The notes under the pieces were generated by a model that worked only from the letters and a program-made list of their open reading frames with translations, searched no databases and was not told where the DNA came from. Of a stretch of 25,560 nucleotides of DNA, positions 1,504-25,549 are shown piece after piece. This DNA comes from a virus: positions 1 through 25,560 of the IMG/VR virus record IMGVR_UViG_3300022223_000023. One strand, written 5' to 3'. Position numbers and translations under genes: made by a program. Each line of letters starts with the position of its first letter. Positions within the stretch are counted from its first letter, which is position 1.

Positions 1504-1950
1504 TTATACTAAACTGCTTGGAGCACTATTTTGTGGTTGATCTGAGGGCTCGCCCTGATCACCATTATGAGCATCGGCGATAGCCGCCATTTCAGCCTCA
1601 AGCTCTTTTCTTAGCTCTGCTTTCATGGACTCTCTGTCAGCCTCTAGCTCAGCCTCTAGCTCAGCCTTAGCTTCCGCCTTAGCTTGCGCCTTAAGTTTTG
1701 CTAAATCAAGCTGATTCTCAGCCTTAAGCTCTTTAGCAGGCTCTTGGCTTAGGTGCGCCTCTTGATCTTCTTTGTCCAGCTTGCTGAACTCAGACTTGAA
1801 CTCTTCATCAAGGCATTTAACCCAACGAGGGAAACGACCATTAATGATTAGTCCGTTATAAGTAAATTTTTGGGTAGGGTGCCTTAACACTCCACCATGT
1901 TGTCCCATTTCAATAGCCTGCACGCTCACAGACACTTTTTGCTTGTGCAT
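1504..1950 (-). CDS. Unknown head-region protein with long charged coiled coil
   Basis: The product has 148 residues and I do not recognise the family. Residues 1-50 are compact, with HPTQKFTYNGLIINGRFPRWVK, split here as HPTQKFTYNG and LIINGRFPRWVK; such short domains are common in unassigned proteins downstream of capsid genes. Residues about 66-125 are an uninterrupted Ala/Glu/Lys-rich helix with repeats of the A-E-L-E-A type, almost certainly a coiled coil. The tail is disordered, Gln/Pro/Ser-rich, and ends in SSLV, one of several hydrophobic C-termini in this phage. GGAGAG precedes the ATG at 1950. A minor head or head-completion role is only inferred from position between cement protein and adaptor. 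Confidence 0.6.
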   Translation of the reverse strand: MHKQKVSVSVQAIEMGQHGGVLRHPTQKFTYNGLIINGRFPRWVKCLDEEFKSEFSKLDKEDQEAHLSQEPAKELKAENQLDLAKLKAQAKAEAKAELEAELEADRESMKAELRKELEAEMAAIADAHNGDQGEPSDQPQNSAPSSLV

Positions 1951-1967
1951 ATCACTCTCCTAAAATA

Positions 1968-2420
1968 TTATCCTTGGTACGCTCCGTCAACCGCTGTTAC
2001 AACACCTGCTGTGATCTTGCCAGTGGCGGGAACCGCGTCAGCTACGTATCTTAGCCTGATGTACCTTTTTGTAATTTCTCTAGGGAACTTGTCCATAGGG
2101 AAGATAAAACCTTCAAATAGCTTTGCAACAGCGTCGATCTTTACTTCAACAACTTGCTCCGCTGCTCCGAAAGCCTCATCATCGTCTTGCTCCATAATAA
2201 CTGAAAGCTCAGTATTATTTGTAAATTGCTCTACAACTTGAACAAGTAAAGGAACCTTCATGCCTACACCTAGTCTACGACTAAGTTGTTGACGAGGTCC
2301 ACCTTTTGAATTATACGCCACTTCTGCCATCTCGCCCATGTCGAGTACGTTAGTGGAGATTACCGACAACGCACCAATTGTTTGCGCGTCAGAAAAAATT
2401 GATTGATTATCTAAATGCAT
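1968..2420 (-). CDS. Bbp16-like capsid cement protein
   Basis: The product has 150 residues. The N-terminus MHLDNQSIFSDAQTIGALS followed by a STNVLDMGE stretch matches the Bbp16 family, whose BPP-1 member is the cement protein that stabilizes the capsid shell from outside. The rest is predicted beta-rich (LLVQVVEQF, ELSVIMEQ, VEVKIDAVAKLFEGF, RYIRLRYVADAVPATGKITAGVV in short segments), as expected for a jellyroll. It lies directly downstream of the major capsid gene, the same order as in BPP-1. AGGAG is about 8 nt before the ATG. Family recognition is from memory of the N-terminal signature and gene order, not from a search. Confidence 0.75.
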   Translation of the reverse strand: MHLDNQSIFSDAQTIGALSVISTNVLDMGEMAEVAYNSKGGPRQQLSRRLGVGMKVPLLVQVVEQFTNNTELSVIMEQDDDEAFGAAEQVVEVKIDAVAKLFEGFIFPMDKFPREITKRYIRLRYVADAVPATGKITAGVVTAVDGAYQG

Positions 2421-2470
2421 CTCAGGCTCCTGTTAAACCGTTAAGAGTTATTTTTAAGTGCCGTAATTAC

Positions 2471-3554: not shown

Positions 3555-4319
3555 TCAAGCACTTTTTTCGTCAAAGTATTGCGGATAAAGATTTTTTAAG
3601 CTCTGAGTGTATTCACTATCGTTGCTCACTGGAGTACTCGAGCCTTTTCCTGCACTTGACGGATTGTCTCCCATTAGCGATTCGCCTATTGATTTCAGCA
3701 GTTTAGCCAGAGCGTAGTTGTTCCCGATCTCCGGCGAAGATAGTTGCTTAACCATCTCGTCGTCACCAAACTTATCTACTACAGTTTTAATCGCTAAAAA
3801 AGAAGCATCTTTATTTTCGCCATTAAAAGCAGGGTCTTTATCAAAAAAGTTTTTCTGATCTTCATAATATTTAAGTCTCGGACTATTAGCTGCAACCATT
3901 CCTCTTTTGTAAGACTCTTCATATATACCTACCATCTCGTCAGCTTGCTCTTTAGTCCAACCTTTCTCACCTGCTAAAGTGGCGATGTGGTCTAGGTCTT
4001 CATCCGATAACGGCGAATTATCTGCCACAGTAATGTCGTAACTCTCAGGCTCCTCAGTAGCAGTCGCCGCAGGGTCTTCATCACCTTTAGTAGTAACTGC
4101 AGGGTCTTCATCGCCTTCAGTAGTAGCCGTAGTATCCTCATCGCCCTTGCCTTTGATTGCATCTGCAATTGGATTAGATAAGGTCGGCTCCGTACTCGTG
4201 CTGCCCTCTTGCTCCGAGGTCGTCTGGGAGGTCGTAGAGTTCCCCTCTGTCGTTGACGTCGGCTCCGTAGTTCCGCTCGAAGTAGTCGTTGTCTCTGTTG
4301 TCTCTGTCTTTTCGCTCAC
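3555..4319 (-). CDS. Scaffolding protein with low-complexity acidic N-terminus
   Basis: The product has 254 residues. Residues 1-50 are almost entirely Thr, Ser and Glu. Residues 59-88 hold three 10-residue repeats beginning GDED. Then come a predicted helical part (LSDEDLDHIATLAGEKGW, then TKEQADEMVGIYEESYKRG) and a C-terminal helical region that in scaffold proteins contacts the capsid protein. Such acidic, helical, low-complexity proteins just upstream of the capsid gene are the usual scaffold. The start is GTG at 4319 with AAGGAG 7 nt upstream; there is no ATG before about residue 117, so this start is well supported. The first 146 nt overlap the preceding gene in another frame. Confidence 0.75.
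   Translation of the reverse strand: MSEKTETTETTTTSSGTTEPTSTTEGNSTTSQTTSEQEGSTSTEPTLSNPIADAIKGKGDEDTTATTEGDEDPAVTTKGDEDPAATATEEPESYDITVADNSPLSDEDLDHIATLAGEKGWTKEQADEMVGIYEESYKRGMVAANSPRLKYYEDQKNFFDKDPAFNGENKDASFLAIKTVVDKFGDDEMVKQLSSPEIGNNYALAKLLKSIGESLMGDNPSSAGKGSSTPVSNDSEYTQSLKNLYPQYFDEKSA
4056..4145 (-). repeat. Three tandem 30-bp repeats inside the scaffold gene
   Basis: The DNA encodes GDEDTTATTE, GDEDPAVTTK and GDEDPAATAT in direct succession, a period of exactly ten codons. The second and third copies are closest. The repeat lengthens a disordered acidic linker and is likely to vary in copy number between relatives. Confidence 0.85.
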
Positions 4320-4581
4320 GTTCTTTCTCCTTCATTTTATCTCGTAGCTGTGACTCTTGTATCATTTTCATAACAAGTGATTCATCTACGTCATTTGTAA
4401 TTGCCATTATATAAAGTGCGACTGATCGTTTACCTAGCATTCGATTAACTTGATTAGGCTCTCCAGAAATATCGTGATATAGGCCACAATATTCTATTAG
4501 TGACCACACGAACTCACGACCGCTAGTGGTCGTCATTACGTGCCTAATTGCATTGTTCAATCTTACGTTTTCATCTCTCAT
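4174..4581 (-). CDS. Bbp19-like phage protein
   Basis: The product has 135 residues. The N-terminal half (LNNAIRHVMTTTSGREFVWS followed by LIEYCGLYHDI, then G-K-R-S-V-A-L-Y-I-M-A) matches the small Bbp19-like domain of phage head genes, which shows the same T-x-x-GR-x-F/W-x-LL-x-x-CG-[LV] pattern and a GxRxxAL segment. Its function is unknown to me. Residues about 80-100 are highly charged (KEKERERKDRDNRDND), and the C-terminus is YGADLI. ATG at 4581 has GGAGAG upstream. The last 48 codons are also the start of the scaffold gene in another frame, so this tail and the Thr-rich scaffold N-terminus are encoded by the same bases. Confidence 0.7.
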   Translation of the reverse strand: MRDENVRLNNAIRHVMTTTSGREFVWSLIEYCGLYHDISGEPNQVNRMLGKRSVALYIMAITNDVDESLVMKMIQESQLRDKMKEKERERKDRDNRDNDYFERNYGADVNDRGELYDLPDDLGARGQHEYGADLI

Positions 4582-9039: not shown

Positions 9040-9624
9040 CTATATTAATGAACTGTACGGACTATCCGCACTTTGATTTTCTTCTTCCTCTTCGGTGGCC
9101 TCGGCTAACCTTTTATGATCTCTTACTCTACGGTACTCAGCCTCAATATCTTCAAGCGTCCGCCCGTCGTCCTCTTCAGGCTTCTTGTAGGAGTTCATAA
9201 CAATTTGTGTGAGTGTAATATTTGAATCGATTTCAAGTCGGTCCACAAAATCACCCTCAGACTTTCCTAGTAGCTCAGACGCTTTTAATCTTTGCTGTAT
9301 TGGAATGTCAGGCTGTAACTCTTCTGGTAGGGGATTTCCGTGCTTGTCCTTCGCAGGCTTTGAATGAGGGTCACGATTATACATAATATCGGTCCACCAT
9401 GCTTGACGATGTTCTCTAGTAGCAATGACAGATTTTCTCTTCGTCATAAAACGTGAACGATCTTTTAAGCACTCCATAATTTTTGGGTCGGCCAGCAGCC
9501 TCGAACCATACTGCCTAAGGTAAGTTTCGCTTCCTTGGTATCCGGCAGTCTGCATTGCTTCGACTATGTCACCTGCATAGCTATCTACAAAAAGTCGTTG
9601 TTGTTTTGTCAAGGTCGTTGTCAT
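9040..9624 (-). CDS. terS: Terminase small subunit
   Basis: The product has 194 residues: DNA recognition for packaging. The N-terminal LTKQQRLFVDSYAGDIVEAM leads into QTAGYQG, then Y-L-R-Q-Y-G-S-R-L-L-A-D-P-K-I, the usual helix-turn-helix of small terminases. The region around residue 130 has RLKASELLGKSEGDFVD, another family hallmark. The C-terminal third is very acidic, then ends YSSLI, identical to the C-terminus of the SNF2 helicase encoded at 13150-14547. I start at ATG 9624, with GGAG 9 nt before it. A longer GTG form at 9645 would include this binding site in the coding region and start only a few bases after the predicted transcription start. First gene of the late operon. Confidence 0.88.
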   Translation of the reverse strand: MTTTLTKQQRLFVDSYAGDIVEAMQTAGYQGSETYLRQYGSRLLADPKIMECLKDRSRFMTKRKSVIATREHRQAWWTDIMYNRDPHSKPAKDKHGNPLPEELQPDIPIQQRLKASELLGKSEGDFVDRLEIDSNITLTQIVMNSYKKPEEDDGRTLEDIEAEYRRVRDHKRLAEATEEEEENQSADSPYSSLI

Positions 9625-9647
9625 CGTTTTACTCTCCGCGTTCACAA

Positions 9648-9677
9648 TATATAGGTTACTTCGAGTTATGGTATCAA
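9648..9677 (-). promoter_or_regulatory. Predicted sigma70-type promoter for the late/morphogenesis operon
   Basis: On the minus strand, TTGATA (9677-9672) and TATATA (9653-9648) are separated by 18 nt. Transcription would start near 9641, about 17 nt before the terS ATG. Two near-identical boxes, TGTCGACAG at 9698-9706 and TGCCGACAG at 9725-9733, lie just upstream and could bind an activator. Confidence 0.5.
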
Positions 9678-9875
9678 TGCAAGAGAAAAGTTAATAGTGT
9701 CGACAGAGCTATTAGGGAGTGCCCTGCCGACAGTGGATAATTGCCGGAGAGCAAATTGAAACCACACTTAATAGTAAATGCGGTATGAGAGGGCGTCCAC
9801 AAATTTCTGAAAAATTTTTTCGGGCACTAGGTACTTAAAGTCTTCACGTATGAGGGAGGGATTAGACCAGCAGCA

Positions 9876-9939
9876 TGGACACTAAACAATACAGGTACTA
9901 TAAATTATGCGTACACTAAACAATACAGGTACTATAAAT
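9876..9939 (+). promoter_or_regulatory. Tandem-repeat plus-strand promoter(s)
   Basis: A perfect 27-bp direct repeat lies at 9879-9905 and 9913-9939 (period 34). The first copy makes a strong sigma70-type promoter: TGGACA at 9876-9881, 17 nt, TATAAA at 9899-9904. The second copy keeps TATAAA (9933-9938) but has a poor -35 box (CGTACA). Start sites would fall near 9911 and 9945, some 770-800 nt before the first plus-strand gene, so the transcript would have a very long leader or be a separate RNA. Confidence 0.55.
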
Positions 9940-10208
9940 ACAATATGTTTATACGGATGGAGAGTGGTAAAATATTAAATACGGATGGTACCTATGTCCA
10001 CGCGCCCGATCGGAAAGGGGGAAGGCGGGGTGTGCATTGAGAAAATCGACCCCCTACCACGTAAAAACTAAACGACTCTCATTGATGTTGCGACTAGGCG
10101 TGTCGGCGTGTCCCGTCGTGCCCACCTAAACACAACGCATTTATAAACAAGGACAATGCCCCGACTGGCTGCACGTTTCGAGCGTTTCGGACATAAATGT
10201 TGTTTAGC

Positions 10209-10259
10209 TATGTATAGTTGCCTCTAGTGTATAGTTTAAACTGGAGGCAACCAGACATG
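10209..10259 (+). repeat. 51-bp inverted element, left copy
   Basis: Reading 51 bases from here and comparing them with the reverse complement of 10540-10590 gives 45 matches without gaps. This includes an uninterrupted 25-base identical block (10227-10251) that contains the palindrome AGTTTAAACT. GTATAGTT half-sites lie at 10212-10219 and 10229-10236. This copy can also fold on itself: GTTGCCTCTAGT pairs with ACTGGAGGCAAC (11 of 12). Confidence 0.85.
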
Positions 10260-10539
10260 AAAACGTAGTTGTTTCAAGGGCTTGGCGTGATTCGTGCCGT
10301 TTTGTGCTTCGAGATTTCCACGAGTTACAAACGCGATTCGTGTATAGTTTAAAAACGTGATTTCTGTGGGGATTATATACACTATGCATTATAGTACATA
10401 TATTGTTTATATGCATAATGTCTAAATTGCGTATGAACTTCGATATTTAAACTATATATAAATTAAATATATAAGTATATGTAATCACATAGACAAAATA
10501 TCATAAAATCACGCTAAACCCGTGGATTCATTTAGTTTC
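10260..10539. other. AT-rich core between inverted elements; candidate replication origin
   Basis: The 280-bp core has a G/C-richer left part with related boxes (GCGTGATTCGTG at 10285-10296, CGCGATTCGTG at 10332-10342, CGTGATT near 10356) and a single GTATAGTT at 10342-10349. The right part, about 10370-10510, is extremely AT-rich: 15 of 60 G/C in the line from 10381 and 9 of 60 in the line from 10441. Repeated protein boxes beside an easily melted stretch, flanked by large inverted repeats, are the usual layout of a phage origin. No gene is visible. Origin function is inferred. Confidence 0.45.
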
Positions 10540-12710: not shown

Positions 12711-13045
12711 TGCAAACGACTAAAGTTTTCAGGCATATCGCACAGGTATCGAAAATAGCTAGATTAAAAAGTGGTATGTCACAACCACAAATGGCAAAGC
12801 ATTTAGGGTATAACAGTGGGCAATTCATATCCAACGTAGAGCGTGGACTCTGTTCGTTGCCACCGAGTAAAGTACCAAAGATGGCCCATCTCAGTGGAGT
12901 ACCAATTGAGGAGTTCAAAAATGCACTTTTAAAGGACTTTGAGCATAATATTAACTATGAGATAGGGGCTTTTAGCGAAACGTCTTCAACGGCCACGTAC
13001 AAGGCCATGAATGACCACGTTAGCAGATTCACAGGGCTTGTTTAA
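12710..13045 (+). CDS. XRE-family HTH regulator
   Basis: The product has 111 residues. Residues 12-60 carry the XRE fold: VSKIARLKSGMSQPQMAKHL, then GYNSGQFISNVERGLCSLPP, with Q-x-x-[MV]-A-x-x-L and the recognition stretch ending in E-R-G. A short helical extension follows, ending in FTGLV. It is preceded by AGGAGG and overlaps the lipoprotein stop by one base. The next intergenic gap holds an inverted repeat centred on a promoter, which is the most likely operator for this protein. Confidence 0.75.
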   Translation: MQTTKVFRHIAQVSKIARLKSGMSQPQMAKHLGYNSGQFISNVERGLCSLPPSKVPKMAHLSGVPIEEFKNALLKDFEHNINYEIGAFSETSSTATYKAMNDHVSRFTGLV

Positions 13046-13149: not shown

Positions 13150-14547
13150 GTGATACAGACAGCATTAAAAGCTAGAGCGCATCAGATTGACCTGATGAAC
13201 TTTAGCGCAACTAACAGCATGATAGGCACGCTTGCGTGGCACGGTATGGGGCTAGGTAAAACTTTGGGCGCATTGTGGGCCGCTCAAAAACATACCGACG
13301 ACCTTATCGCTTCAGGACTTGCAAACAATCCTAAGGTAGCAATCTTTTGCCCGAAGTCGGCAGTAATAACTTGGCGTCAAGAAATCAATACAAACGTAAA
13401 GGCACTAATACCTAAGGCATTGATTTACCCTATCTCTTCAATTCATCATTTTGTTAAGTCGTGTAAATACCACGACGTTAGATACATCATAATTGACGAG
13501 TCGCACGCTTTCAAAAGTCCTGAAACCGATCGCATCAGTGTGCTGGCCAAGCTATTTAAAACTATAGGTACTCACGGTAATGCGTTTAAGAACGGTCGTA
13601 TGATGTTACTTACTGGTACGCCAATGCCTAATGGTGCGCATGAACTTTATACTTCATTTGCCATGTGTACGGCACCGGACTTAGTCGAAGCATCGAAAAG
13701 ACTTCAAGACCCTAAGAGAATTAAAGCATGGGAATATTCATATGCAGATCGCAAGAAGAAAAACTTCAGAAAATACGACAGGAAAACTCACAGCAAAGTT
13801 AACGAAGAGAGAAGTTCACCGTCAGGGGCAGCAAACGTCGACCTACTTGGAAAACTTTTAACGAGGTTCACTCACTATCGTAGAGTTACGGACTGTATTG
13901 ATATACCGAAAGCGCATGAGCATCACATTAACTTAGGACTTCCCGACGATGATCTATTAAGAGATGCGGACATCGAGAAGCCAGAGGCATACATGGCAAT
14001 TGTTGAAAGATTGTCAGCGGCAAAAACTCCGCATATGCTTTCATGGATTAATGAGTTCATTAGAATCAATCCAACAACACAGCTACTAGTTTTTACAATG
14101 CACCGACGACCGCTTGATGCATTGATGGCACACTTTAAAGGTCGTGCTAGACAGATAACAGGTAAAGAGAAGAGGACTGAACGTGACGATAACATCAATC
14201 ACTTTAAAGAAGGTCGATACCAAATACTAGGCATGACATATAAGTGTGGTTCAGAAAGTTTAAATTTGCAGAACTCATATAATTCACTTTACCATGGATA
14301 CCCGTGGACAGATTCAACATTAAGGCAGGCAATGGCACGAACATATAGATCGGGCCAGTTAAACGAGACTAACCATTTCTTTTTAACTAGTGGTCAGAAC
14401 GACTCAAGAGTTCTTAATTTAGTGCGCAGTAAGCAAGAGGCAACAAATGCAGTCGAGGATATGCTAATCGAATTAGAGAAGCAACGAATCAACCAAGCAA
14501 TACAGGTACAAACTCAACGACAAAACTTATACAGTTCGTTGATATGA
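13150..14547 (+). CDS. SNF2-family DNA helicase/ATPase
   Basis: The product has 465 residues. It has the superfamily 2 motifs in order: I GMGLGKT (32-38), Ia IFCPKS (65-70), II DESH (116-119), III LTGTPMPNG (154-162), and VI RQAMARTYRSGQ near residue 393. The Asp-Glu-Ser-His box and the closing Y-R-x-GQ are typical of compact phage SNF2 proteins found with DUF2800, DUF2815, PolA and VirE genes, where they are thought to act in replication or recombination. The start is GTG at 13150 with GGAGAG upstream. The C-terminus (QNLYSSLI) repeats that of the small terminase. First gene after the operator-promoter. Confidence 0.85.
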   Translation: MIQTALKARAHQIDLMNFSATNSMIGTLAWHGMGLGKTLGALWAAQKHTDDLIASGLANNPKVAIFCPKSAVITWRQEINTNVKALIPKALIYPISSIHHFVKSCKYHDVRYIIIDESHAFKSPETDRISVLAKLFKTIGTHGNAFKNGRMMLLTGTPMPNGAHELYTSFAMCTAPDLVEASKRLQDPKRIKAWEYSYADRKKKNFRKYDRKTHSKVNEERSSPSGAANVDLLGKLLTRFTHYRRVTDCIDIPKAHEHHINLGLPDDDLLRDADIEKPEAYMAIVERLSAAKTPHMLSWINEFIRINPTTQLLVFTMHRRPLDALMAHFKGRARQITGKEKRTERDDNINHFKEGRYQILGMTYKCGSESLNLQNSYNSLYHGYPWTDSTLRQAMARTYRSGQLNETNHFFLTSGQNDSRVLNLVRSKQEATNAVEDMLIELEKQRINQAIQVQTQRQNLYSSLI

Positions 14548-15439: not shown

Positions 15440-16696
15440 ATGAACACAGGAAATTTCAACGACCTGATAAATTTCGTTAGACCTTCGGAGCACTCTAAAT
15501 ACTCTCCGTCGGCAGCAGAAAGGTGGCTAGAAACTGGCTGTCCGGCCAGCATAAGATTAGAAGAGCCGATACCTAATACATCATCGAAGTATGCAGAGGA
15601 AGGTACACTAGCACACAGCTATTGTGAGGCAGTAATAAGGCAAAGGTTCTATAATACTCCAATCCCACATCATCTATCGCTACAGCTTGCACAGCTAGAG
15701 GATAACGGCGTGGAGATGGAGCATTGTGCAAACTTATATGCAGACGTTGTTGAGTGGTGGTTAAGAAATCCGGCACTAGGTAAAATTATTTGGTGGGGGC
15801 TTGAACGTGGAGTTCCTGTCTTTCCAGAAAAAGGATGTTTTGGTACGGCGGACTGTTTAGTTATCGGTTCAGAAGGTGCGGCAGTTATCGACTTCAAGTA
15901 TGGTAAGGGTAAGAACGTATCGGCAAATACAGTACAACTACAAGTGTATGCGGCAGGAGTGGCAAAGCACCTACCAATTACTAACAAAGATTATCCAATC
16001 ACAGCGGTAGTTCATCAACCACGAATAGTTGAGGACGCCAAAGAGCATACATATACTTTTCAAGAACTCATCGACTTTCTATACGTAATAGAGAGGTCAA
16101 TCAATAAGTGTGAAGACCCGAACGCACCAATCGTCGACGGTAATCACTGTTTTTGGTGTAGAGCTAGAAGGACTAATGACCCTTCACTTAAATGCCCCGT
16201 CATTGCAGATAGACCACGTAAGTTAGCGCTTGAAAACTTCGATAAGTTTTTAGCTGACTCTAATCTTAATCCGCCCGATATTGCAGTGAAGACTACTCGA
16301 GATCAAGCGATCATAAAACTCATGGCACTTAAGCCATTAATAGATGAAGTCGTCAACGAAGCACACTCGGAGTTCAAGCAAAGACTGATTAACGGTGAGG
16401 CGATCGAAGGCATACAGTTAGTGGAGAACTACGGTAGAAGAGTCATCAATGCTGTTAATGATGAAGAGGCAAGCAGACTAATTAAGCAACATTTTCCACA
16501 GGTCAATCCAGTTAAAACTGTACCATCAAAAGTGAAGCTGAAAACGCTCACTGAAATTGAAAAGGAATTGGGCAAAAATAAATTAGACCCACTTTGTATC
16601 AGAAAAATAACGAAAGAAGTAAAGGTCGTAGACCAGAAAACAAGATCAATTATTGAGAGTATGTCTCAATATGCTAAACAAATAGGAGGGCAGTAA
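15440..16696 (+). CDS. DUF2800-type PD-(D/E)XK nuclease (Cas4/RecB-like)
   Basis: The product has 418 residues. DUF2800 features are SPSAAERWLETGCPASIRLE (residues 22-41), EEGTLAHSYCEA near 53, CFGTADCLV near 132-140, AVIDFKYGKGKNVSANTVQL near 148-167 and QVYAAG after it. The Asp in GTAD and the D-F-K triad are the nuclease core. Four cysteines may bind an iron-sulfur cluster as in Cas4/AddB: C34 and the group C-x2-C-x11-C near 237-252 (HCFWCRARRTNDPSLKCP). The family is regularly next to DUF2815 SSB genes, as here (TAATG overlap). Likely role: DNA end processing or recombination. AGGAGAG precedes the ATG. Confidence 0.8.
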   Translation: MNTGNFNDLINFVRPSEHSKYSPSAAERWLETGCPASIRLEEPIPNTSSKYAEEGTLAHSYCEAVIRQRFYNTPIPHHLSLQLAQLEDNGVEMEHCANLYADVVEWWLRNPALGKIIWWGLERGVPVFPEKGCFGTADCLVIGSEGAAVIDFKYGKGKNVSANTVQLQVYAAGVAKHLPITNKDYPITAVVHQPRIVEDAKEHTYTFQELIDFLYVIERSINKCEDPNAPIVDGNHCFWCRARRTNDPSLKCPVIADRPRKLALENFDKFLADSNLNPPDIAVKTTRDQAIIKLMALKPLIDEVVNEAHSEFKQRLINGEAIEGIQLVENYGRRVINAVNDEEASRLIKQHFPQVNPVKTVPSKVKLKTLTEIEKELGKNKLDPLCIRKITKEVKVVDQKTRSIIESMSQYAKQIGGQ

Positions 16697-17631
16697 TGAC
16701 GCCAGAACAACAAAAAGAATTTTTTAGTAAGACGTTCACTCTTCAGGGGCGAATGTTTTTTACACAAAACGTGCTCACTCCCGAGCAGCCATCGCCGGAG
16801 GACGCAGCGAAAGGGTATAAGCCTGCATACAAAATTATGTTTGTGTGGCCTAAAACCTCTAACGCTCATGTGATGCAAGAGCTAGGACAGTTTATAACGA
16901 CTGCAAAAGATCAATTGCACGCATCAATTCCTTGGCAACATTTCGTAAATCCAATCAAGGACTACGATACTTACGTGCGCCAAGATGGAAAGCCTAACCA
17001 CGAATTTACTAAAGGGTGCTATTGGATAAATGCTTCGACTCAATTTCAGCCACCAGTGGTAGGGCCAGACAGACAGCCTGTCATTAATGAAGCAGACGTG
17101 TACTCAGGTAGAAACTGTGTAATTAATATTAGTTTTTACAATATGTCCGGTACAACTAAAGATGGTAAAGCAGGAAAACGAGGACTTTCTACAAACTTTA
17201 ATGCAGTCATGCTTCTTGAAGGTGGTGAGCGTGAAGGTGGTGGAGGAGTTCAAGTTGACCCCAACCAAGTGTTCGGACAATTCCAAGTTGACATGGGCCT
17301 AGTCAACCAAGGAGGGCCAGCGCCTTCCGCATCACCGTCGAGTGACCCGTTTGGTGGTCAACAGCATCAAGCACCTGCCCCACAAGGTAGTCCGTTTGGT
17401 GGTCAACCCCAAGCACCGGCACCGACTCCCCAACAAACCCCACCTCCACAGCAAGGGCAGCCTAACCCGTTTGGTCAAGGTGCTCCTGCCCCTGTCCTAC
17501 AAGGACAGCCGCAGCCTAGCCCGTTTGGTGGACAAGCTCCTGCGCCTCAAGCACCGGCAGGACAATTTGGTGGTGGACAACAAGTTCAGATGCCTAACAT
17601 TAACACTAACGCTAATCCATTTGGTCAATAA
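16696..17631 (+). CDS. Single-stranded DNA-binding protein, DUF2815/Enc34-like, with PFG-repeat tail
   Basis: The product has 311 residues. Residues 1-185 match DUF2815: Y-K-P-A-Y-K-I-M-F-V-W-P-K, GCYWINASTQFQPPVV, ADVYSGRNCVINISFYNM and STNFNAVMLLEGGER are the family's conserved strands of an OB-like fold. Proteins of this group bind single-stranded DNA in phage replication. The C-terminal 110 residues are a disordered Pro/Gln/Gly-rich tail with repeated DPFGGQ, SPFGGQ, NPFGQG and final NPFGQ. Normal SSB tails are acidic and end in IPF; this one replaces that with many PFG units, which may recruit several partners at once. ATG overlaps the previous stop. Confidence 0.78.
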   Translation: MTPEQQKEFFSKTFTLQGRMFFTQNVLTPEQPSPEDAAKGYKPAYKIMFVWPKTSNAHVMQELGQFITTAKDQLHASIPWQHFVNPIKDYDTYVRQDGKPNHEFTKGCYWINASTQFQPPVVGPDRQPVINEADVYSGRNCVINISFYNMSGTTKDGKAGKRGLSTNFNAVMLLEGGEREGGGGVQVDPNQVFGQFQVDMGLVNQGGPAPSASPSSDPFGGQQHQAPAPQGSPFGGQPQAPAPTPQQTPPPQQGQPNPFGQGAPAPVLQGQPQPSPFGGQAPAPQAPAGQFGGGQQVQMPNINTNANPFGQ

Positions 17632-17643: not shown

Positions 17644-18270
17644 ATGTATAAATTAACTATCGAATGTAAAAACATCAACGATCTTTCTGAAGTAGTAGGA
17701 CGCTTAGGTTCTACTGCTGTCAGCGCAAAGATTGAAACCCCATCGACTGCACAGGTAGATAGGGCCGCTGAACCTACTCGAGCAGAGGATACAAGCGGCG
17801 ATAAGCTAACGCCGAAGCAGAAGGCGAAAGCAGAAGCGGAAGCATTAGGCGTCGAAGTAAGTAGTAAAGATACTAAAGCAGACATCGAAGCTAAGATTGC
17901 TGCTCATACTTCAAGTGGTGATTTGCCAGAACCGCCACCAGTTCCACAGATGAGCGCTGCTCAATCAAATAATCCGCTACCACCGGAAGGCGTAGTATCA
18001 CCGGCGGCAGCACCGGCAGCGGCACCGGCCTTCAATCGCGATGTTGCACTTCAAAACATCGTACAAGGCTTTCAAAGTTTACAGCAGGCAGGATACCCTG
18101 AAGCACAAATTGCACCACTATTGCAGCAAGAGCTTCAAAAGGCAGGCGCTCCTGCGGTTAGACTAGGTGAGCTTTCAGATCAACACTTATCGGCGGCATA
18201 CCCTTACATTATGGACATGATTAACTCAATCCTTAATGCATCTAAGAGTCAGTCGTCAGCATTTGTTTAG
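17644..18270 (+). CDS. Replication-module protein with HeH/SAP-like segment
   Basis: The product has 208 residues. Residues 55-89 (LTPKQKAKAEAEALGVEVSS followed by KDTKADIEAKIAAHT) look like an HeH/LEM/SAP-type helix-extended-helix, a small DNA-binding fold common in phage proteins. A Pro/Ala-rich linker (98-130) leads to a helical C-terminal part (NIVQGFQSLQQAGYPEAQIA, then LLQQELQKAG). The very end is SSAFV. The gene is directly downstream of the SSB gene with GGAGAAACCA before the ATG, so it may be an SSB partner or loader. The HeH call is by eye. Confidence 0.55.
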   Translation: MYKLTIECKNINDLSEVVGRLGSTAVSAKIETPSTAQVDRAAEPTRAEDTSGDKLTPKQKAKAEAEALGVEVSSKDTKADIEAKIAAHTSSGDLPEPPPVPQMSAAQSNNPLPPEGVVSPAAAPAAAPAFNRDVALQNIVQGFQSLQQAGYPEAQIAPLLQQELQKAGAPAVRLGELSDQHLSAAYPYIMDMINSILNASKSQSSAFV

Positions 18271-18540: not shown

Positions 18541-18875
18541 TGTTCAGTTCAAGAACACTCAGAAGACGAAAAGAGAAAAAACTTAAAAAGCACGCTGAGA
18601 AAACCAAAGACTTTCTAGTGGAGTGTAGAAGAAAAATTCTTCCCACACTTATAAGTTCATTCAATGGGATGAATAAAACATATCCGTGCAAGCAATTTCA
18701 GCTAATCATTATGGACTTGGAAAGTATCACCGAACACTTAAACGATCTTAAAAAGAATGGTGCAAAAGCTCCTATGTCAGTGACACCTTTAAAAGATAGT
18801 AAAGTTAAAATGAATCCTGAAACTGATCTACCTAAGAATCTTAGAGATCAAAAAGTTGAGCCGAGTTCACTATGA
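18540..18875 (+). CDS. Unknown basic protein
   Basis: The product has 111 residues. The N-terminus is strongly basic (LRRRKEKKLKKHAEKTKDFL), possibly nucleic-acid-binding. The middle is helical (FQLIIMDLESITEHLNDL) and the end polar, PSSL. No family recognised. It lies between the FGKYKG gene and DNA polymerase with overlaps at both ends (TAATG, ATGA), so it is co-translated with the replication genes. A processivity or primer-handling helper is possible but nothing in the sequence proves it. Confidence 0.5.
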   Translation: MFSSRTLRRRKEKKLKKHAEKTKDFLVECRRKILPTLISSFNGMNKTYPCKQFQLIIMDLESITEHLNDLKKNGAKAPMSVTPLKDSKVKMNPETDLPKNLRDQKVEPSSL

Positions 18876-20857
18876 TGGATTTCTTCTTCGACTTTGAAAC
18901 TAGGAGTCGCCTCGACCTTAAGGAAGTAGGCACAATACGATATGCACTTCACGAAAGTACAGAGGCGACCCTTATCACTTATGCTTTTGGAAAGTATGGA
19001 GAGCTTAGATACTGGCGATTAGGATGGCCACTACCTCAAGACTTAATCGAAGTTGCAAGAAATCCGGAGAACTTTAACTTCATAGCTTTCAACGTGATAT
19101 TCGATTACATGATTTGGATGCACGCATTTATCGGTAAGATGGGCGGCATCGTCAATAAGATACCATTAGAAAGAGTCCACGACTGTATGGCCCTAACCTG
19201 CCACTATAGGGCCGGAAGTTCGTTAGGGTCAGCGGCAAAAATGTTTGACCTTCCACTAGAGAAAGATAAGGAAGGTCGACGAATAATGCTTAAACAACGT
19301 AAGCCTGATCGCAAGGGTAAATTCCCTGAGCTAACAGCAGAGGAGTGGCAACACTTCATCAGATACGGACTACTAGACACAAGGATACTGCGAGAGATTT
19401 ACTATCGTTGTCCTGCACTTCCATCTGGTGAGCGATGGGTATGGGAGTGGACGTTCAGACGAAACCTTCAAGGCATACGTGTTGACGTCCCATTAATCAA
19501 CGTGCTCAACGACATACTAAGCGAAGAGTATCCAAAATATTTAAGACAATTTCATTACTTCACAGGCGGAAACTTCACAGTAAAGTCTACACAAAAATGC
19601 CTAGAGTTTTTTAAACAGTTCTGGCCCTCGATTAAAAACATGAGAAAGGATACCGTAAGGGATATGCTACTAGAGTCAGAAGGGAAACCGAACCATGCAG
19701 TACAGGCATTAAAAATAAAAGAGACTGCCGGTTCCAACTCATTAGCGAAAATTAAAGTAGCAGTTAATCAAACTTTTAAAGGTCGACTATATAACCTTCT
19801 GGTTTACCACAAGGCCCAAACAAAAAGGTGGGCAGGCTATGGAGTTCAAATACAAAATATGCCTCGACTAGAAAGATTAGAAGGTGAACCTAAAATTAAC
19901 CTCGACGCTGTCAATGTGGCGGAGCAATTGTTGGAGGTTAGATCACAACTAAAGCAACCACTAAAGTATATAAAAAATTTAATTCGTCGATGGTGGATAC
20001 CTCAAGACGGAAATAGATTTTACTGTGGTGACTACTCTAAGATCGAACCAACATTTTTAAGATGGCTTGCAGGCATGGGCGAGATACCACCACTAGTCTA
20101 CGAAGAAATGGCAGAGGCGATATATAACATTCCAATAGACCAGATCGGTAAGGACTCCGAGGAAAGACAAGTCGGTAAGGCAGTCGAACTTGGTGGAGGC
20201 TATGGCATGGGATGGAGAAAATTTAGGGCCGACGTGTACGAGAAAACAGGCATCGTCCTAACTCCAGAAATGGCAAAGCACGTTATAAAAGTTTATCGCA
20301 AGAAGAACAAACCAATCGTTGATTTATGGAACGCACTTGACGCAGCATTTCGTAGGGCGATCTACGGCGAAACTTCTGTTGTTTGTGATGGCAAGATTGC
20401 AGTAGGCCCTATGCAGGGCAGAAGAGGCGTTCAGATTCGTTTACCTTCCGGTGGGCGACTCTACTATCACGGGGCTTTTATCCGTGGTGAGGAAGAGATT
20501 ATGGAGACTATCACAATCAGAAATGGTGTGCCGCACATTGAAAAGAAAAAGGTATGGAGAGACAATGTTTATTATGTCGGAGATGACCAAGGTTCAGTCA
20601 AAAATATTAAAGTGTACGGTGGCCAGCTAACTGAGCACGTAACGTCCGCTATCAGCCGTGAGGCACTTGCCCCTGCAATGTGGCGAGTAGAGCAGGCAGG
20701 ATTTGAAGTCCTTTGCTGTGTACACGATGAAATGTGGGCAGAATCTTACCATGGACGTGACCAAGAGTTCGACGATCTCATGGCACATCGACCTACATGG
20801 GCGAGGGATGTTGTAATAAAAGTTGGATTAGATAACGGATTAAGATATTTAAAGTAG
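18872..20857 (+). CDS. Family A DNA polymerase with 3'-5' exonuclease
   Basis: The product has 661 residues: replicative polymerase of the phage. The exonuclease domain shows FFFDFETRS (D7, E9), FNVIFDYMIW near residue 74 and YGLLDTRIL near 168. Polymerase motifs are A GDYSKIEPTFLRWLAGM near 385, B ERQVGKAVELGGGYGMGW near 431 (the R-x3-K-x6-YG pattern) and C VHDEMW near 617. All catalytic acids are present. The motif A change from the usual Q-I-E-x-R to K-I-E-P-T is notable but seen in small phage PolA proteins. The start overlaps the previous stop (ATGA). Next to DUF2815, nuclease and primase genes as in other phages of this type. Confidence 0.9.
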   Translation: MMDFFFDFETRSRLDLKEVGTIRYALHESTEATLITYAFGKYGELRYWRLGWPLPQDLIEVARNPENFNFIAFNVIFDYMIWMHAFIGKMGGIVNKIPLERVHDCMALTCHYRAGSSLGSAAKMFDLPLEKDKEGRRIMLKQRKPDRKGKFPELTAEEWQHFIRYGLLDTRILREIYYRCPALPSGERWVWEWTFRRNLQGIRVDVPLINVLNDILSEEYPKYLRQFHYFTGGNFTVKSTQKCLEFFKQFWPSIKNMRKDTVRDMLLESEGKPNHAVQALKIKETAGSNSLAKIKVAVNQTFKGRLYNLLVYHKAQTKRWAGYGVQIQNMPRLERLEGEPKINLDAVNVAEQLLEVRSQLKQPLKYIKNLIRRWWIPQDGNRFYCGDYSKIEPTFLRWLAGMGEIPPLVYEEMAEAIYNIPIDQIGKDSEERQVGKAVELGGGYGMGWRKFRADVYEKTGIVLTPEMAKHVIKVYRKKNKPIVDLWNALDAAFRRAIYGETSVVCDGKIAVGPMQGRRGVQIRLPSGGRLYYHGAFIRGEEEIMETITIRNGVPHIEKKKVWRDNVYYVGDDQGSVKNIKVYGGQLTEHVTSAISREALAPAMWRVEQAGFEVLCCVHDEMWAESYHGRDQEFDDLMAHRPTWARDVVIKVGLDNGLRYLK

Positions 20858-20868: not shown

Positions 20869-21804
20869 ATGTCCAAAGAAGAGAAGAAGAAAAAAGTTAA
20901 TGGTACTAAAAAAGGTAAGCAATTTGAGAGGGATGTTGCTAATGCTTTAGGGCACATATTTCCAGAGGCGGAAAGAAACCTTGAATACCAAGCATCTAAT
21001 TGTGTTGGCGTCGATCTTAACGGCACAGACATTTTTAGAATCCAGTGTAAAAACTATCAAGCCTATGCCTCGATAAGTAAGATCAACGAAATTAGAGATG
21101 AAGACCCTAATCATATACCCGTACTAGTCACCAAAGGCGTAAGACAAAAACCAATGGCAGTACTTCCTTTTGAAAAGTTTGTACTAATGCTAGAGCATAT
21201 CTACTTAGGCAAACATGACATCGGCGACAAGAAGACCATAGCGGCAGTAGAACCTGCTAAGATCGAACCACCAAGAGCGATCAAAGAGCCTGCTTCAGAA
21301 ATCATAATGAGAAGAACTCCATCATTTGAAGACGTGTGCGATAATGCAGAGTGTGGCGAGTACGATCACTCGATGGCAGAAGGTGTGAAGGGTGAACAGA
21401 CTCTCCCATACCAAGACGTTATCACTAAGATTGAAGAGTACTACGATACTGAAGTCGAATACATGGAAGGACTTGAGTATAACAGGATGTGCTTGACGTT
21501 CAGAGATAATGGAAAGCAAGACGAGAACGATTATTTCTTGTGGCTAGATTGGACTAAGAACTCAGGATTCTCAAGATTGATTGTTGAAGTCGCACAACTA
21601 GAAAAGAAAATGAACGCCTCATTATTGGCGGTGTATGTGTCAGATAAATATTTAGAGGGGTCGGATGAAGAGTCTACCGTTGAAGAAACTACTATTGAAG
21701 AGGCCAAAGTTGTTACCGATGCTCCGAGTACTAGCTACTCTAGTTTACTTGGAGATATATCGACTCCGGCTACACAATCACAAACATCGTACAGTTTCAT
21801 TTAG
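20869..21804 (+). CDS. PD-(D/E)XK nuclease (Holliday-junction-resolvase-like) with long C-terminal region
   Basis: The product has 311 residues. The N-terminal 110 residues form a restriction-like nuclease: GKQFERDVANAL (E20), then ASNCVGVDLNGTDIFRIQCK (D49, D54, Q59-C-K61), close to Hjc-type resolvases or VRR-NUC proteins; Q replaces the usual E in the E-x-K pair. After a linker near 120-150, the second half (L-P-Y-Q-D-V-I-T-K-I-E onward) is unfamiliar. The C-terminus is disordered, has an internal YSSLLGD and ends TSYSFI. Probable role: branch resolution or DNA trimming before packaging. GGAGAG precedes the ATG. Confidence 0.72.
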   Translation: MSKEEKKKKVNGTKKGKQFERDVANALGHIFPEAERNLEYQASNCVGVDLNGTDIFRIQCKNYQAYASISKINEIRDEDPNHIPVLVTKGVRQKPMAVLPFEKFVLMLEHIYLGKHDIGDKKTIAAVEPAKIEPPRAIKEPASEIIMRRTPSFEDVCDNAECGEYDHSMAEGVKGEQTLPYQDVITKIEEYYDTEVEYMEGLEYNRMCLTFRDNGKQDENDYFLWLDWTKNSGFSRLIVEVAQLEKKMNASLLAVYVSDKYLEGSDEESTVEETTIEEAKVVTDAPSTSYSSLLGDISTPATQSQTSYSFI

Positions 21805-21812: not shown

Positions 21813-23915
21813 ATGTATCACGATCTAAAAGCAATACGCTTCATAAGTGGGACGAAAATATCTCACGACTATCGAGGGAGGGAAGTCAATACCTTCAGCC
21901 TAAGAGAACTTATCTCAAAGAAAGTGGATTCTATAGGTGTTCCGGCAAAACAAAACAGACTTCTGATCGTCGACGTAGACGTAGCAGGCCCTTCACATCA
22001 GCATGACGGTCGTCAGTGGTGGCAGAATTTTTGTCAAGAGTACGGGATACCCGACACATATACGGTGCAGACTCCATCAGGAGGATACCACTTCTACTTT
22101 AGAATACCGGACAGCATAGACCTAGAAACTTTTGCCTGTCCTGCTCACCCTCAAGAGAATGGCGAGTCAGTTCTAGGAGTAGACTTCAAGTATAATGGAT
22201 GGGTAGGTTCTCCACCAACTAAAGGTTACTATGTTATCCACAAAGATATTAGTCAGATTGAAGAGCTTCCTGTAGTTTTCCTTGCATACATCAGTAACAT
22301 TACTCAAGGTCAGAGTATATCGACTAATGCGAATAATCCTGTGGCAAACCTTCACCGACCTTATACAGCAGAGCAAATCGAAGACCTTCAAAGTAAGATA
22401 AATTGGGTACGATCTAACACAACACTCTCCAGAGATGAGTGGCGTGATGGGATATTCTCACTCAAGGCAGGTATTGAAGACCCTGCATTACTCGAGGACT
22501 TAGTAGTTAAATGGACAATGAACAAGTCCTATATAGATGGCGACGAGAAGCTAGCAATCGACATGGCAGATCGTGCAGACAAGTACGGAAGTATCGGGCC
22601 GGGTACAATCTTTAGTATTATAAAAGATGCAATGACTAGATCAGGAGAGGCCATCAAGATTGATAGTGCAAGCGCTGAACAAAGCCCATGGACTCGAGAT
22701 GAAATCTTTGCTCGGGCACAAGTTCCTGTTCATGTTAACAGAAAAGGTGAAGACGTTGTCGAACCTTCAGAGTCTAATGCAGCCGCTTTACTTGGAGCAC
22801 TCTACGACATCAATAGTTTGTATTATGATACTAGAAATAATATGTACATTTTTAATGACGAGTCATACTCCGATACTGAGCTGGCCAACAGGTTCATACC
22901 TTTAATTCAAAGTTCATCACACGGTCTAGGACTTGATAAGTTTAGAGCGTCTACCGTTCAGAGGGGCATTGATATTTTAATGGCGAATAGAAAAGTCGAC
23001 CCTCACGAAAGATATCTTAAGAGTCTTCAATGGGATGGAGTTCATAGAATTGAAACTTTCTTTATAGACTTTTTAAAAGTTCAGGATACTGCATACCATA
23101 GACGAGTAGGTAAGAACTTCTGGACTGCACTCGCGGCAAGAGGTTTATGTGCCGGTTGTAAGTTCGACTCGATGTTAGTCATCGAAGGGCACGAAGGCAT
23201 TAGAAAGTCCTCACTAGTTCAAGTGATTGGTGGTAAAGAATATACATACGCGCCCCTATCGAACAAAGCGTTTGAAGACCTCGACGAATTGAGAAAGATG
23301 CATCAGTCGGTGATCGTTGAGCTACCCGAACTAATAGGGTTAGTGAATCGTCCTGCTGAAATGGTTAAGGGATTTCTTTCTAATCCAGTTGATACCATTA
23401 GGGACTTGTTTGCGAAAAGAGCAAAGCAAAATAAAAGAGGCTTTGTTTGTGTAGGCACTACCAACGAAAGTAAGTACTTAAATTCTGCCATGGGCATCAG
23501 AAGGTTCTGGCCAATAGTGTGCCCGTCAGATTTACAATCAATTGATACAGTTGAGATATCAAGAATCAGAGATCAACTTTTTGCGGAGGCAGTCGCATGG
23601 TATCGTGATGGGTACGAGTATTGGGATATGCCTTCTAATTTATTAGGACAGGAAGTTAACGGTAAGATTCAAGAAGACCCATTAAAAACAGCTATTAGTA
23701 AGTGTGTGTTTGATGGTGAGCACTTCGACATACTTGATCTATTTAAGCGACTTGCCGATCTTGGATATGTTAATAGAGGATTCGATTATAGACTAGCTGA
23801 GAGGTTCGAGACTGCCTTGAAATCATTAGGGTTTATGGAGGTGGGCGGAATGTGGTCAAAGCCTACGACCGAGTCGCAGCCTGAGTTCTTAGCGCAATTT
23901 ACTAACTTGATCTAG
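21813..23915 (+). CDS. Primase-polymerase fused to VirE-type (D5-like) helicase
   Basis: The product has 700 residues. The N-terminal archaeo-eukaryotic-type primase shows LIVDVDVAG (51-59), QTPSGGYHFYF (86-96) and GVDFKYNGWVGSPPT (122-136), the Asp pair and His region of bifunctional prim/pol domains. The C-terminal half is a VirE-family superfamily 3 ATPase: RYLKSLQWDGVHRIETFF, Walker A EGHEGIRKSS near 458 (Arg where Gly is common), Walker B VIVELPEL, FVCVGTTNES and GIRRFWP. Together they prime and unwind at the fork. It is the last gene of the replication block, begins 9 nt after the nuclease stop, and ends FTNLI. Confidence 0.85.
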   Translation: MYHDLKAIRFISGTKISHDYRGREVNTFSLRELISKKVDSIGVPAKQNRLLIVDVDVAGPSHQHDGRQWWQNFCQEYGIPDTYTVQTPSGGYHFYFRIPDSIDLETFACPAHPQENGESVLGVDFKYNGWVGSPPTKGYYVIHKDISQIEELPVVFLAYISNITQGQSISTNANNPVANLHRPYTAEQIEDLQSKINWVRSNTTLSRDEWRDGIFSLKAGIEDPALLEDLVVKWTMNKSYIDGDEKLAIDMADRADKYGSIGPGTIFSIIKDAMTRSGEAIKIDSASAEQSPWTRDEIFARAQVPVHVNRKGEDVVEPSESNAAALLGALYDINSLYYDTRNNMYIFNDESYSDTELANRFIPLIQSSSHGLGLDKFRASTVQRGIDILMANRKVDPHERYLKSLQWDGVHRIETFFIDFLKVQDTAYHRRVGKNFWTALAARGLCAGCKFDSMLVIEGHEGIRKSSLVQVIGGKEYTYAPLSNKAFEDLDELRKMHQSVIVELPELIGLVNRPAEMVKGFLSNPVDTIRDLFAKRAKQNKRGFVCVGTTNESKYLNSAMGIRRFWPIVCPSDLQSIDTVEISRIRDQLFAEAVAWYRDGYEYWDMPSNLLGQEVNGKIQEDPLKTAISKCVFDGEHFDILDLFKRLADLGYVNRGFDYRLAERFETALKSLGFMEVGGMWSKPTTESQPEFLAQFTNLI

Positions 23916-23958: not shown

Positions 23959-24354
23959 ATGAGATTTTTAATTATTATCGCCACACTAATGATGATGGCA
24001 ACACTAGCTTTTGCACAATCAATGGGAGTACCAGACGCAAATCCACTTCAAAAACTTGGTGAGCTTGTTCTCAATTGGGAAAACTTATCGAGCTTAATGA
24101 AAGGTTCTCTGGCCGTTTTAATTTTAGTTCAAGTCATTAAGCAAGTTACCGACTTTAAGTATAAGCGACTACTTGTCACGTTACTATCTATTGGTTATGG
24201 TGTACTCCAAATGCTAATAGGCGATGCAAATTTGAGCCAAGCGATCATCGCAGTTTTGATTTCCGGTGGTGGTGCATCAGCACTTTACGAAGTATTAAAA
24301 CCTTTTCTTCGCAGTATTCCTTTGTTCGACTTCCTCAAGTTGGGCGATAAATAG
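23959..24354 (+). CDS. Holin-like membrane protein with signal peptide
   Basis: The product has 131 residues. MRFLIIIATLMMMATLAFAQ is a signal peptide with an AFA-Q cleavage site. Three hydrophobic segments follow: SLMKGSLAVLILVQVIKQV, RLLVTLLSIGYGVLQMLIG and AIIAVLISGGGASALYEVLK. Size, membrane spans and a Lys-containing end (KLGDK) fit a holin that times lysis, but there is no diagnostic motif. GGAGG is 6 nt before the ATG, and a promoter lies just upstream. Confidence 0.5.
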   Translation: MRFLIIIATLMMMATLAFAQSMGVPDANPLQKLGELVLNWENLSSLMKGSLAVLILVQVIKQVTDFKYKRLLVTLLSIGYGVLQMLIGDANLSQAIIAVLISGGGASALYEVLKPFLRSIPLFDFLKLGDK

Positions 24355-24692
24355 TGGACACTGAGAAGGAATTATATTCTCTCTTCTTCGAGGAAGTGGT
24401 ATCGGTGGTGATATCTAATATCATATCAGCGGTGCCCTTCCTCGGGCTTCCAGTTATCAATTGGTTTTTTGTTCAAGCAGTTAAGTACTTGGCAAAAGCA
24501 TTTTGGAAGGAGGCATCTATCGTTGGAATGTTTATTCGCATAGACTTTCAAGAAGGTGAGAAGCAGCAGAGATATGAAGAGGCAGTACAGGACTTAGAAG
24601 ATGCTGTATGGAGCGGCGACGAAGCTGCTAAGGAGAAGGCAAGAGATGAATTTAAAAATACTTTACGTGATCTTATTCGCATTGACCGTTAG
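24354..24692 (+). CDS. Membrane protein with charged helical tail (holin or inner-membrane spanin candidate)
   Basis: The product has 112 residues. Residues 14-50 are hydrophobic (VVSVVISNIISAVPFLGLPV, then INWFFVQAVKYLAKAF); the last 45 are a charged helix (EGEKQQRYEEAVQDLEDAVW, then DEAAKEKARDEFKNTLRDLI). A membrane anchor plus helical extension overlapped by a lipoprotein gene recalls Rz/Rz1 spanin pairs, but the hydrophobic part is longer than usual. The start is GTG at 24354, sharing a base with the previous stop (TAGTG); the binding site is weak, so translation is probably coupled. Confidence 0.45.
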   Translation: MDTEKELYSLFFEEVVSVVISNIISAVPFLGLPVINWFFVQAVKYLAKAFWKEASIVGMFIRIDFQEGEKQQRYEEAVQDLEDAVWSGDEAAKEKARDEFKNTLRDLIRIDR

Positions 24693-25044
24693 TTGCGGCA
24701 AGGTGAAAATAAAAGACTCAGAGTTCTGTGGTGACATGGGACCAGAAGGGGCAACCTGTTTCCGCCTTCTATCTGATGAGTCCCGAACACTAACAGCTTC
24801 CGAATGGGAGCAGGAAAGGTTCGGAATGATATGTTCTAAGTCAAAAGCGTTTTTAAATTTTAAGACGTCCATATTAAAACTTTGTAACATAACAAAGCGA
24901 TGCACCTATGAGCAAAGGCAGACTGCCAAAAAGTTAGGGGAAAACATAGACGCATTTATTAAAGAGTTAAACGGAGAGCAGAATGAAGGAATTGAGAAGC
25001 CGCATCGACAAAATGTCAGAAGCGGAATTAAAAACAGCAATTAA
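24646..25044 (+). CDS. Cysteine-rich lipoprotein
   Basis: The product has 132 residues. MNLKILYVILFALTVSCGK is a lipoprotein signal with the lipidated Cys at 17. Five more Cys (28, 38, 63, 80, 86) suggest a folded, partly disulfide-bonded periplasmic domain. The C-terminus is helical and polar. I use ATG 24646, with AAGGAG upstream; the frame is open upstream but those codons lie inside the previous gene, with which it overlaps by 47 nt. Candidate outer-membrane spanin or superinfection-exclusion protein. Its signal peptide is similar in style to that of the lipoprotein encoded at 12489-12710, but the rest is not. Confidence 0.65.
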   Translation: MNLKILYVILFALTVSCGKVKIKDSEFCGDMGPEGATCFRLLSDESRTLTASEWEQERFGMICSKSKAFLNFKTSILKLCNITKRCTYEQRQTAKKLGENIDAFIKELNGEQNEGIEKPHRQNVRSGIKNSN

Positions 25045-25549
25045 AAATTACGTCGATGGTACTGCTCATTCAGAGAAATCCAAATTAGGAAAGTACCTCG
25101 GCGTAGACATAGCACCTAGACATAAGCCGCATAAAAAGATACAGCTACCATATGGGACTATGATTACAGAACCTCAATTAAAAAATCTACTTGATAACGA
25201 CTACCTTATTAGTAGTATAGATCAGGTAGTTAATGCCCCTATCAAGAACGGCAGGGCGGACATCACGACCATGCTGGCCTTAATGGGAGCAGCTAAGTAT
25301 TGTGCCGGTAGCAAGATCAAGAAACTAAAAAATGATATGGCGACCATTCTAAGGATTGCAGGATTTGAAAGTCGGACAGGGTACATTGAGCACCTTGGTC
25401 ATAGAAAGACTGCTAAGTACTGGATAAGCTGCGAGAGCACCAAGTACTTATCACCTGAGGAGAGAGCACAGCAGACTAGATACCTGCTAGATAAACTAAA
25501 AAAGATCCACCTTGATCGTGAAGATCAAACTAATTATAACCTCATCTAA
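24983..25549 (+). CDS. Unknown protein with possible winged-helix-like segment
   Basis: The product has 188 residues; no family recognised. It starts with a charged helix (MKELRSRIDKMSEAELKTAI). The middle carries PYGTMITEPQLKNLLDND. The stretch around 120-150 (ATILRIAGFESRTGYIEHLG, then HRKTAKYW) looks like the small winged helix often seen at the end of phage primase or helicase proteins, with W near the end of the wing. The C-terminus is QTNYNLI. The binding site CGGAGAG precedes the ATG, and the first 62 nt overlap the lipoprotein gene. Confidence 0.5.
   Translation: MKELRSRIDKMSEAELKTAIKNYVDGTAHSEKSKLGKYLGVDIAPRHKPHKKIQLPYGTMITEPQLKNLLDNDYLISSIDQVVNAPIKNGRADITTMLALMGAAKYCAGSKIKKLKNDMATILRIAGFESRTGYIEHLGHRKTAKYWISCESTKYLSPEERAQQTRYLLDKLKKIHLDREDQTNYNLI

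Follow-up and report, generated by a model that had tools for sequence, protein, structure and literature searches.

T7 gp2.5 and gp4 have long, acidic C-terminal tails with a Phe as the last residue. In T4, gp43, gp55 and gp33 carry clamp-binding hydrophobic/acidic C-termini, which follow a linker that is divergent in both sequence and length (PMC2988020). Here, we analyzed a 25,560-base virus sequence that comprises the entire IMG/VR record IMGVR_UViG_3300022223_000023 (linear class; hereafter the window), in which nine unrelated proteins end in the hydrophobic pair [LF][IV] directly before the stop codon. The window is probably a fragment of a 45–50 kb genome. Comparison with its relatives indicates that this ending belongs to a five-residue C-terminal motif (the tag), the version of which changes in concert across unrelated proteins of one genome, and points to the product of the gene behind that of the single-stranded DNA-binding protein (SSB) as a candidate reader.

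Unrelated proteins of the window share a C-terminal ending

An earlier note on this DNA listed nine genes with the ending and estimated that fewer than one would be expected by chance. All nine were found in the sequence as listed (Table 1). Among the 35 genes predicted with a simple codon-model gene caller, they compare with an expectation of 0.53, calculated from how often [LF][IV] occurs inside the proteins (binomial P = 2e-9); the pattern is more pronounced than the note had claimed. Only the final two residues show the excess, with counts by offset of 9, 0, 0, 0, 1, 0, .... An equal frequency in unrelated phages, which the note had raised as an argument against itself, was not observed: only 23 of 1775 genes (1.3%) at 67 unrelated IMG/VR loci end in this manner, with a maximum of 3/20 at any locus, and the genomes of epsilon15, Olaya, phiCDKH02 and MW202496 contain 0–1 such endings each. 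Within the window, 2/97 open reading frames that are not genes share it. The codons of the final two residues and the stop codons are mixed, so the peptide rather than the DNA is conserved, as had been proposed.

The 93 distinct tails analyzed give the consensus [LIV]-[DE]-[DST]-[LF]-[IV]-COOH. Information is restricted to the final five positions (1.5–2.9 bits, versus at most 0.65 further upstream), and the spacing hydrophobic-x-x-hydrophobic-hydrophobic is present in 72/93 tails; the upstream Q of the originally proposed motif is not conserved. In the alignments, the tail is the sole conserved element after a gapped, divergent linker, and AlphaFold predicts that the VapE tail is disordered beyond the last folded domain. 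The window nuclease also contains an internal tag-like SYSSLL (21733–21750) shortly upstream of its terminal TSYSFI, as if an extension had overtaken an older tail and created a new one.

The tag is retained by the same orthologues in related phages

IMG/VR was searched with TerL, VapE, SNF2, PolA, DUF2800 and the resolvase, and all of these searches detected relatives. Those with the first five yielded 11 further genomes of 45–50 kb from the uncultivated lineage of the window, together with many fragments; a portal-based search of IMG/VR found no relative. The 12-genome set used below consists of the window genome (W) and these 11 relatives, the eleventh of which, G037, was taken from locus L229. 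A search of bacterial genomes yielded no close relative.

In the 11 relatives, the tag is located on the same orthologues: the primase-helicase (VapE), the resolvase-like nuclease, the SNF2 helicase, TerS, a small helix-turn-helix (HTH) protein and the protein of the type encoded at 17644–18270 (the 17644-type protein), and in most cases also the SSB. Loss of the terminal pair in relatives, the other argument that the note had raised against itself, is not seen for the main carriers. Seven of the nine families retain the tail (TerS, SNF2, nuclease, VapE, 17644, 1504 and 12710), the 12710 HTH family being counted on a single distant homologue, in G030, which ends in DLCGLV. The nuclease is tagged in 14/14 homologues (13 [LF][IV] and one YL), and complete VapE homologues end in [LF][IV] in 12 of 14 cases and in YL and YV in the remaining two. 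TerS has the pair in 22/28 homologues, and the remainder are nearly all FL or YL. In the cluster of the 17644-type protein, 10/12 members are tagged, as are 9/13 SSB homologues (GGFV type), the tail of the window SSB having been lost. All 11 copies of the small HTH protein located between the polymerase and the resolvase end in a hydrophobic tail, and some accessory proteins near SNF2 are tagged as well. Of 17 homologues of the Bbp19-like protein, 3 end in [LF][IV], and most have a different hydrophobic pair (IF, II, VI, LV). No homologue or family was found for the protein encoded at 24983–25549.

TerL and the portal, capsid, scaffold and tail genes are untagged, with rare exceptions. The tag set is absent from relatives that share only virion genes (Olaya and epsilon15) and from phages with a distant replication module (L224, L237–L241, phiCDKH02 and MW202496). 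In G016, G018 and G020, several tail proteins have DGTDWF[IY]I-like ends; this is a separate pattern, which matches [LF][IV] in places and is not to be counted as the tag.

Tails of unrelated proteins change together within a genome

Each genome uses its own version of the tail across its carriers, which we refer to as its dialect. Position -2 is L in G016, G018, G020, G030 and mostly in G029, and F in G015, G021, G028 and G037. G026 employs YL (MSQYL, LSTYL, LARYL, EGKYL, IGKYL and GSKYL), and G027 employs aromatic variants (EAYV, NDFI, DEWV, GDFV and GDYL). In the window, L at -2 is accompanied by an aromatic residue at -4 or -5, and most of the tails contain no acidic residues. All 14 SNF2 homologues use the version of the tag that is characteristic of their genome, and the same holds for the 14 resolvase homologues and for every complete VapE copy. 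Across five unrelated families, the within-genome similarity at position -2 is 4.30, versus 1.99 by permutation (z = 9.1). The coordination persists when tree distance is controlled: in a partial Mantel test, the mean correlation at -2 is r = 0.60 (P = 0.002) and that at -5 is r = 0.49 (P = 0.017), and none is detected at -6 to -10. Sister genomes can differ in dialect, as do G026/G030 and W/G021. Because the tails of unrelated proteins are rewritten together within a genome, this strong pattern suggests that they are most likely read by one co-evolving receptor, and a receptor common to the carriers is the simplest explanation.

A candidate reader is encoded next to the SSB gene

The general idea of the earlier note, that the ending is a common docking signal for one hub, is strongly supported by the conservation on orthologues and by the coordinated rewriting in each genome, but its guesses of a host beta-clamp or a PDZ-type partner are not. 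None of the 93 tails fits the beta-clamp motif. Searches for sliding clamps (PF02916, PF00705 and PF02768), which a diverged clamp could escape, found no beta, PCNA or gp45-type clamp in the 12 genomes at E 0.1. A search limited to phage-encoded PDZ domains (PF13180) was positive in 14/14 controls and in 0/12 phage genomes.

Because neither a clamp nor a PDZ domain was found in the 12 genomes, we searched for a phage protein that covaries with the dialect, using a distance-based test with tree correction on ten-column alignment segments of 19 phage families. The only strong segment is located in the 17644-type protein, within a helical domain that was predicted by eye from its sequence (r = 0.32; equalled in 0/1000 and then in 0/2000 permutations), and the signal survives correction for the 19 families because none of the 2000 permutations equalled it. 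The same segment is obtained from the tails of VapE, the nuclease, SNF2 or TerS singly, and it is stable to the removal of any one genome and to three alignment methods. Its residues are G-[AP] in F-dialect genomes, D or E in most L-dialect genomes, Q in G026 and A in G027. G037, which was outside the set used to find the column, has the G expected of an F-dialect genome. A bulky residue at -2 thus tends to occur together with a small residue in the candidate reader. PolA and DUF2800 gave no covariation signal in this screen. VapE was also considered as the receptor on an early hint from strict F-versus-L columns, which disappeared once more genomes were added.

The 17644 gene sits immediately behind the SSB gene, and its family is present in 12/12 tagged genomes. 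The tag-free controls, which include six phages with a distant replication module, contributed 2497 proteins, none of which is a credible match. Searches against PDB, Pfam and PHROG gave no convincing match and returned only designed helical repeats and composition matches. The link to the SSB receives indirect support, in that most relatives, although not the window, have a tagged SSB and the gene of the candidate receptor adjoins that of the SSB; the version in which the SSB tail itself is the hub found no support.

Gene layout and features of the window

The virion module of the window is epsilon15-like and lies on the minus strand (TerS, TerL, portal, scaffold and capsid), and a replication module lies on the plus strand (SNF2 helicase, DUF2800 exonuclease, SSB, 17644, PolA, resolvase-like nuclease and VapE). 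The coordinates of the tags and of the proteins discussed are summarized in Table 1. The divergent virion and early modules are separated by approximately 1.07 kb without a called gene (9646–10715), which is likely a regulatory or origin region. A small protein at 18280–18540 matches PF12843 (QSregVF_b) and has a weak ExoX-like C-terminal match. A lipoprotein search returned nothing. In most relatives, PolA and the resolvase share a reading frame, and the tagged HTH gene overlaps in another frame. The G021 PolA (L049:5321-8059) is 912 aa long and contains an insertion of approximately 250 residues within the polymerase domain, in which Pfam identifies no intein domain.

Table 1. Tagged endings, untagged replication proteins and the candidate reader in the window
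Feature	Coordinates	Strand	Description
PSSLV tag	1507..1521	-	Small protein 1504-1950 (ends APSSLV), flanked by cementing-type and tail-tube-type genes; 11/16 homologues [LF][IV]
GADLI ending	4177..4191	-	Bbp19-like protein 4174-4581 (ends YGADLI), PF25181; weak member
YSSLI tag	9043..9057	-	TerS 9040-9645 (ends PYSSLI); PF03592, phrog_51
FTGLV tag	13028..13042	+	HTH protein 12710-13045 (ends RFTGLV); PF13560
YSSLI tag	14530..14544	+	SNF2 helicase 13150-14547 (ends LYSSLI); PF00176/PF00271
DUF2800 exonuclease-like protein, untagged	15440..16696	+	PF10926, phrog_69; 1/13 homologues tagged
SSB (Enc34/DUF2815 type)	16696..17631	+	PF10991 E 6e-17; untagged in window (NPFGQ)
Candidate tag reader	17644..18270	+	Conserved N-terminal strand-helix stretch, long linker, predicted C-terminal helical domain, own tag
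Dialect-covarying segment of the predicted 17644 helical domain	18097..18138	+	Residues 152-165, PEAQIAPLLQQELQ
SSAFV tag	18253-18267 (codons)	+	17644-18270 protein (ends QSSAFV)
DNA polymerase A, untagged	18872..20857	+	Ends RYLK in 14/14 relatives; fold matches Pol I structures
SYSFI tag	21787..21801	+	PD-(D/E)XK Holliday-junction-resolvase-like nuclease 20869-21804 (ends TSYSFI); phrog_244 E 1e-10
FTNLI tag	23898..23912	+	Prim-Pol/VapE primase-helicase 21813-23915 (ends QFTNLI); PF09250, PF05272
NYNLI tag	25532..25546	+	Protein 24983-25549 (ends TNYNLI)

A putative docking system

We tentatively favour, at somewhat below an even chance, the reading that the tails are a C-terminal docking motif, hydrophobic-[acidic/polar]2-[L/F]-[I/V]-COOH, which is read by the SSB-adjacent 17644-type adaptor that gathers the carriers. 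The tags sit on flexible linkers of the primase-helicase, the SNF2 helicase, the resolvase, the SSB, HTH proteins, TerS and several small accessory proteins. In this model, the adaptor, linked to the SSB or to ssDNA, would read the C-terminal address of the tagged proteins, presumably including the free carboxylate, and collect them on SSB-coated replicating DNA. It may thereby tie replication and recombination to packaging.

Several observations weigh against this reading. What points to the 17644-type protein as the receptor is covariation statistics, obtained from just 12 genomes with linear removal of tree distance and permutation, which provide an imperfect phylogenetic control, and this protein is the most divergent of the set. 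Its signal concerns position -2, whereas position -5 alone gives P = 0.25. TerS, the next best of the 19 families, shows a weaker window beside its own tail (P = 0.002). The variant tails of 17644 and the SSB (SFI and GFV) follow the dialect incompletely. In two AlphaFold tethers, the natural read-through PolA::nuclease and nuclease::VapE with stops read as G, the tails were disordered; these tethers held PolA and VapE, not 17644.

A more ambitious version, which we consider possible but unlikely, is that the adaptor is an undescribed, SSB-linked hub with a new helical peptide-reading domain, which reads the address tag of approximately ten replication, recombination, regulatory and packaging proteins, and that tag and reader co-evolve as lineage-specific dialects that separate the replisomes of co-infecting relatives. 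If the docking reading is right, one reusable address tag would hold the viral replication and packaging apparatus together, the terminase would be physically connected to the replication machinery, and the 12 natural dialects would be ready-made orthogonal tag/reader pairs. Hub-driven co-evolution would then have left a clear natural record in the coordinated tails of unrelated proteins, and the 17644-type protein, which has no known function, is named as a testable hub. A per-genome scan for shared C-terminal dipeptides could reveal other phage hub systems.

Alternative explanations

Among the alternatives, the most serious, although improbable, is that phage DNA polymerase A acts as the hub, on which the tails would dock as the T7 gp2.5 and gp4 tails dock on T7 gp5. 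The module follows the same logic: a T7-type replisome set is present (SSB PF10991, family A polymerase PF00476 and primase-helicase PF05272/PF09250), in which PolA falls under the PF00476 family cut-off by sequence yet has a matching fold. The polymerase is universal and is the only core replication enzyme that is never tagged (0 of 14), and the T7 gp2.5 tail has been implicated in contacts with the polymerase and the primase-helicase (PMC5686142). However, the polymerase residues do not covary with the dialect (P 0.19), the tag on TerS is not easily accounted for, and the AlphaFold PolA::nuclease tether left the tail undocked, although in this tether the nuclease itself was unresolved.

Slightly less probable is a host receptor, such as the sliding clamp, a binder of the SSB tail or another protein, in which case the dialects would track the host. 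The hydrophobic-x-x-[LF]-[IV] spacing of the 72 tails resembles PIP or T4-type clamp motifs, and the search of bacterial genomes, which gave no close relative, leaves some probability to this explanation at the expense of the 17644 adaptor. Against it, the bacterial clamp motif QLxLF occurs in 0/93 tails, conserved host pockets would not impose such diverse dialects, and the polymerase is untagged while a phage protein covaries instead.

Two further explanations are each quite unlikely. The tail might be a degradation or stability signal for a protease or an adaptor, given that several bacterial proteases recognise hydrophobic residues at the C-terminus, but the carriers are limited to selected functional classes, and the five-residue acidic-core consensus with its dialects exceeds the known C-terminal degrons in specificity. 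The tail is moreover conserved on essential replication enzymes, and its coordination fits this explanation less well. Alternatively, it might sort proteins into the virion or a compartment, as the tags on TerS and the 1504 protein, both in the morphogenesis region, would allow; this again fits the coordination of the tails less well, the tag is missing from the capsid, portal, scaffold, TerL and tail proteins, and the carriers are mostly replication enzymes. Chance, composition or a DNA-level artefact has a negligible probability, because, even though the earlier note picked the pattern after the sequence had been read, the excess is similar in most relatives and in the window, the controls and mixed codons speak against it, and the independent conservation and coordination of the tails refute it.

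Comparison with known systems

The comparison of the tag with the closest known systems draws on PMC7892883 and, for the T7 replisome tails, on PMC5686142. On the features examined, the tag system was not assigned to these systems: no clamp was found in the 12 genomes, the polymerase is untagged and no tail has a PF ending. With the T4 gp45 hub it shares a hydrophobic/acidic C-terminus on a divergent linker that is common to unrelated phage proteins. It differs in that no gp45, PCNA or beta clamp was found, the polymerase is untagged, and many more carriers, TerS and the resolvase included, bear the tag in dialects. The PIP box of PCNA partners has a similar spacing of a hydrophobic residue, x-x and two hydrophobic residues, as in 72/93 tails, whereas here the Q is not conserved, the residues are mostly not aromatic and no PCNA was found. 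The bacterial clamp motif QLxLF is likewise often C-terminal, but matches none of the 93 tails.

The bacterial SSB C-terminal peptide (DDDIPF) likewise combines acidic and hydrophobic residues and recruits DNA enzymes. In the present lineage, the enzymes rather than mainly the SSB bear the peptide, and a mimic of the SSB peptide ([IL]PF-COOH after an acidic stretch) is absent from the 93 tails, which have neither P at -2 nor F at -1. The VapE of a distant phage (L240:14674 gene) ends in DDTELPF, and G021 encodes an 85-aa protein (34656–34913) with the terminus DDIPF; both ends resemble host SSB C-terminal peptides but are located on non-SSB proteins. The lineage shares with T7 a replisome built around a family A polymerase in which both the SSB and the primase-helicase bear a tail, and its SSB is of the T7-like Enc34/DUF2815 type. 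In contrast to T7, the tail described here is a five-residue motif that is carried by many more proteins.

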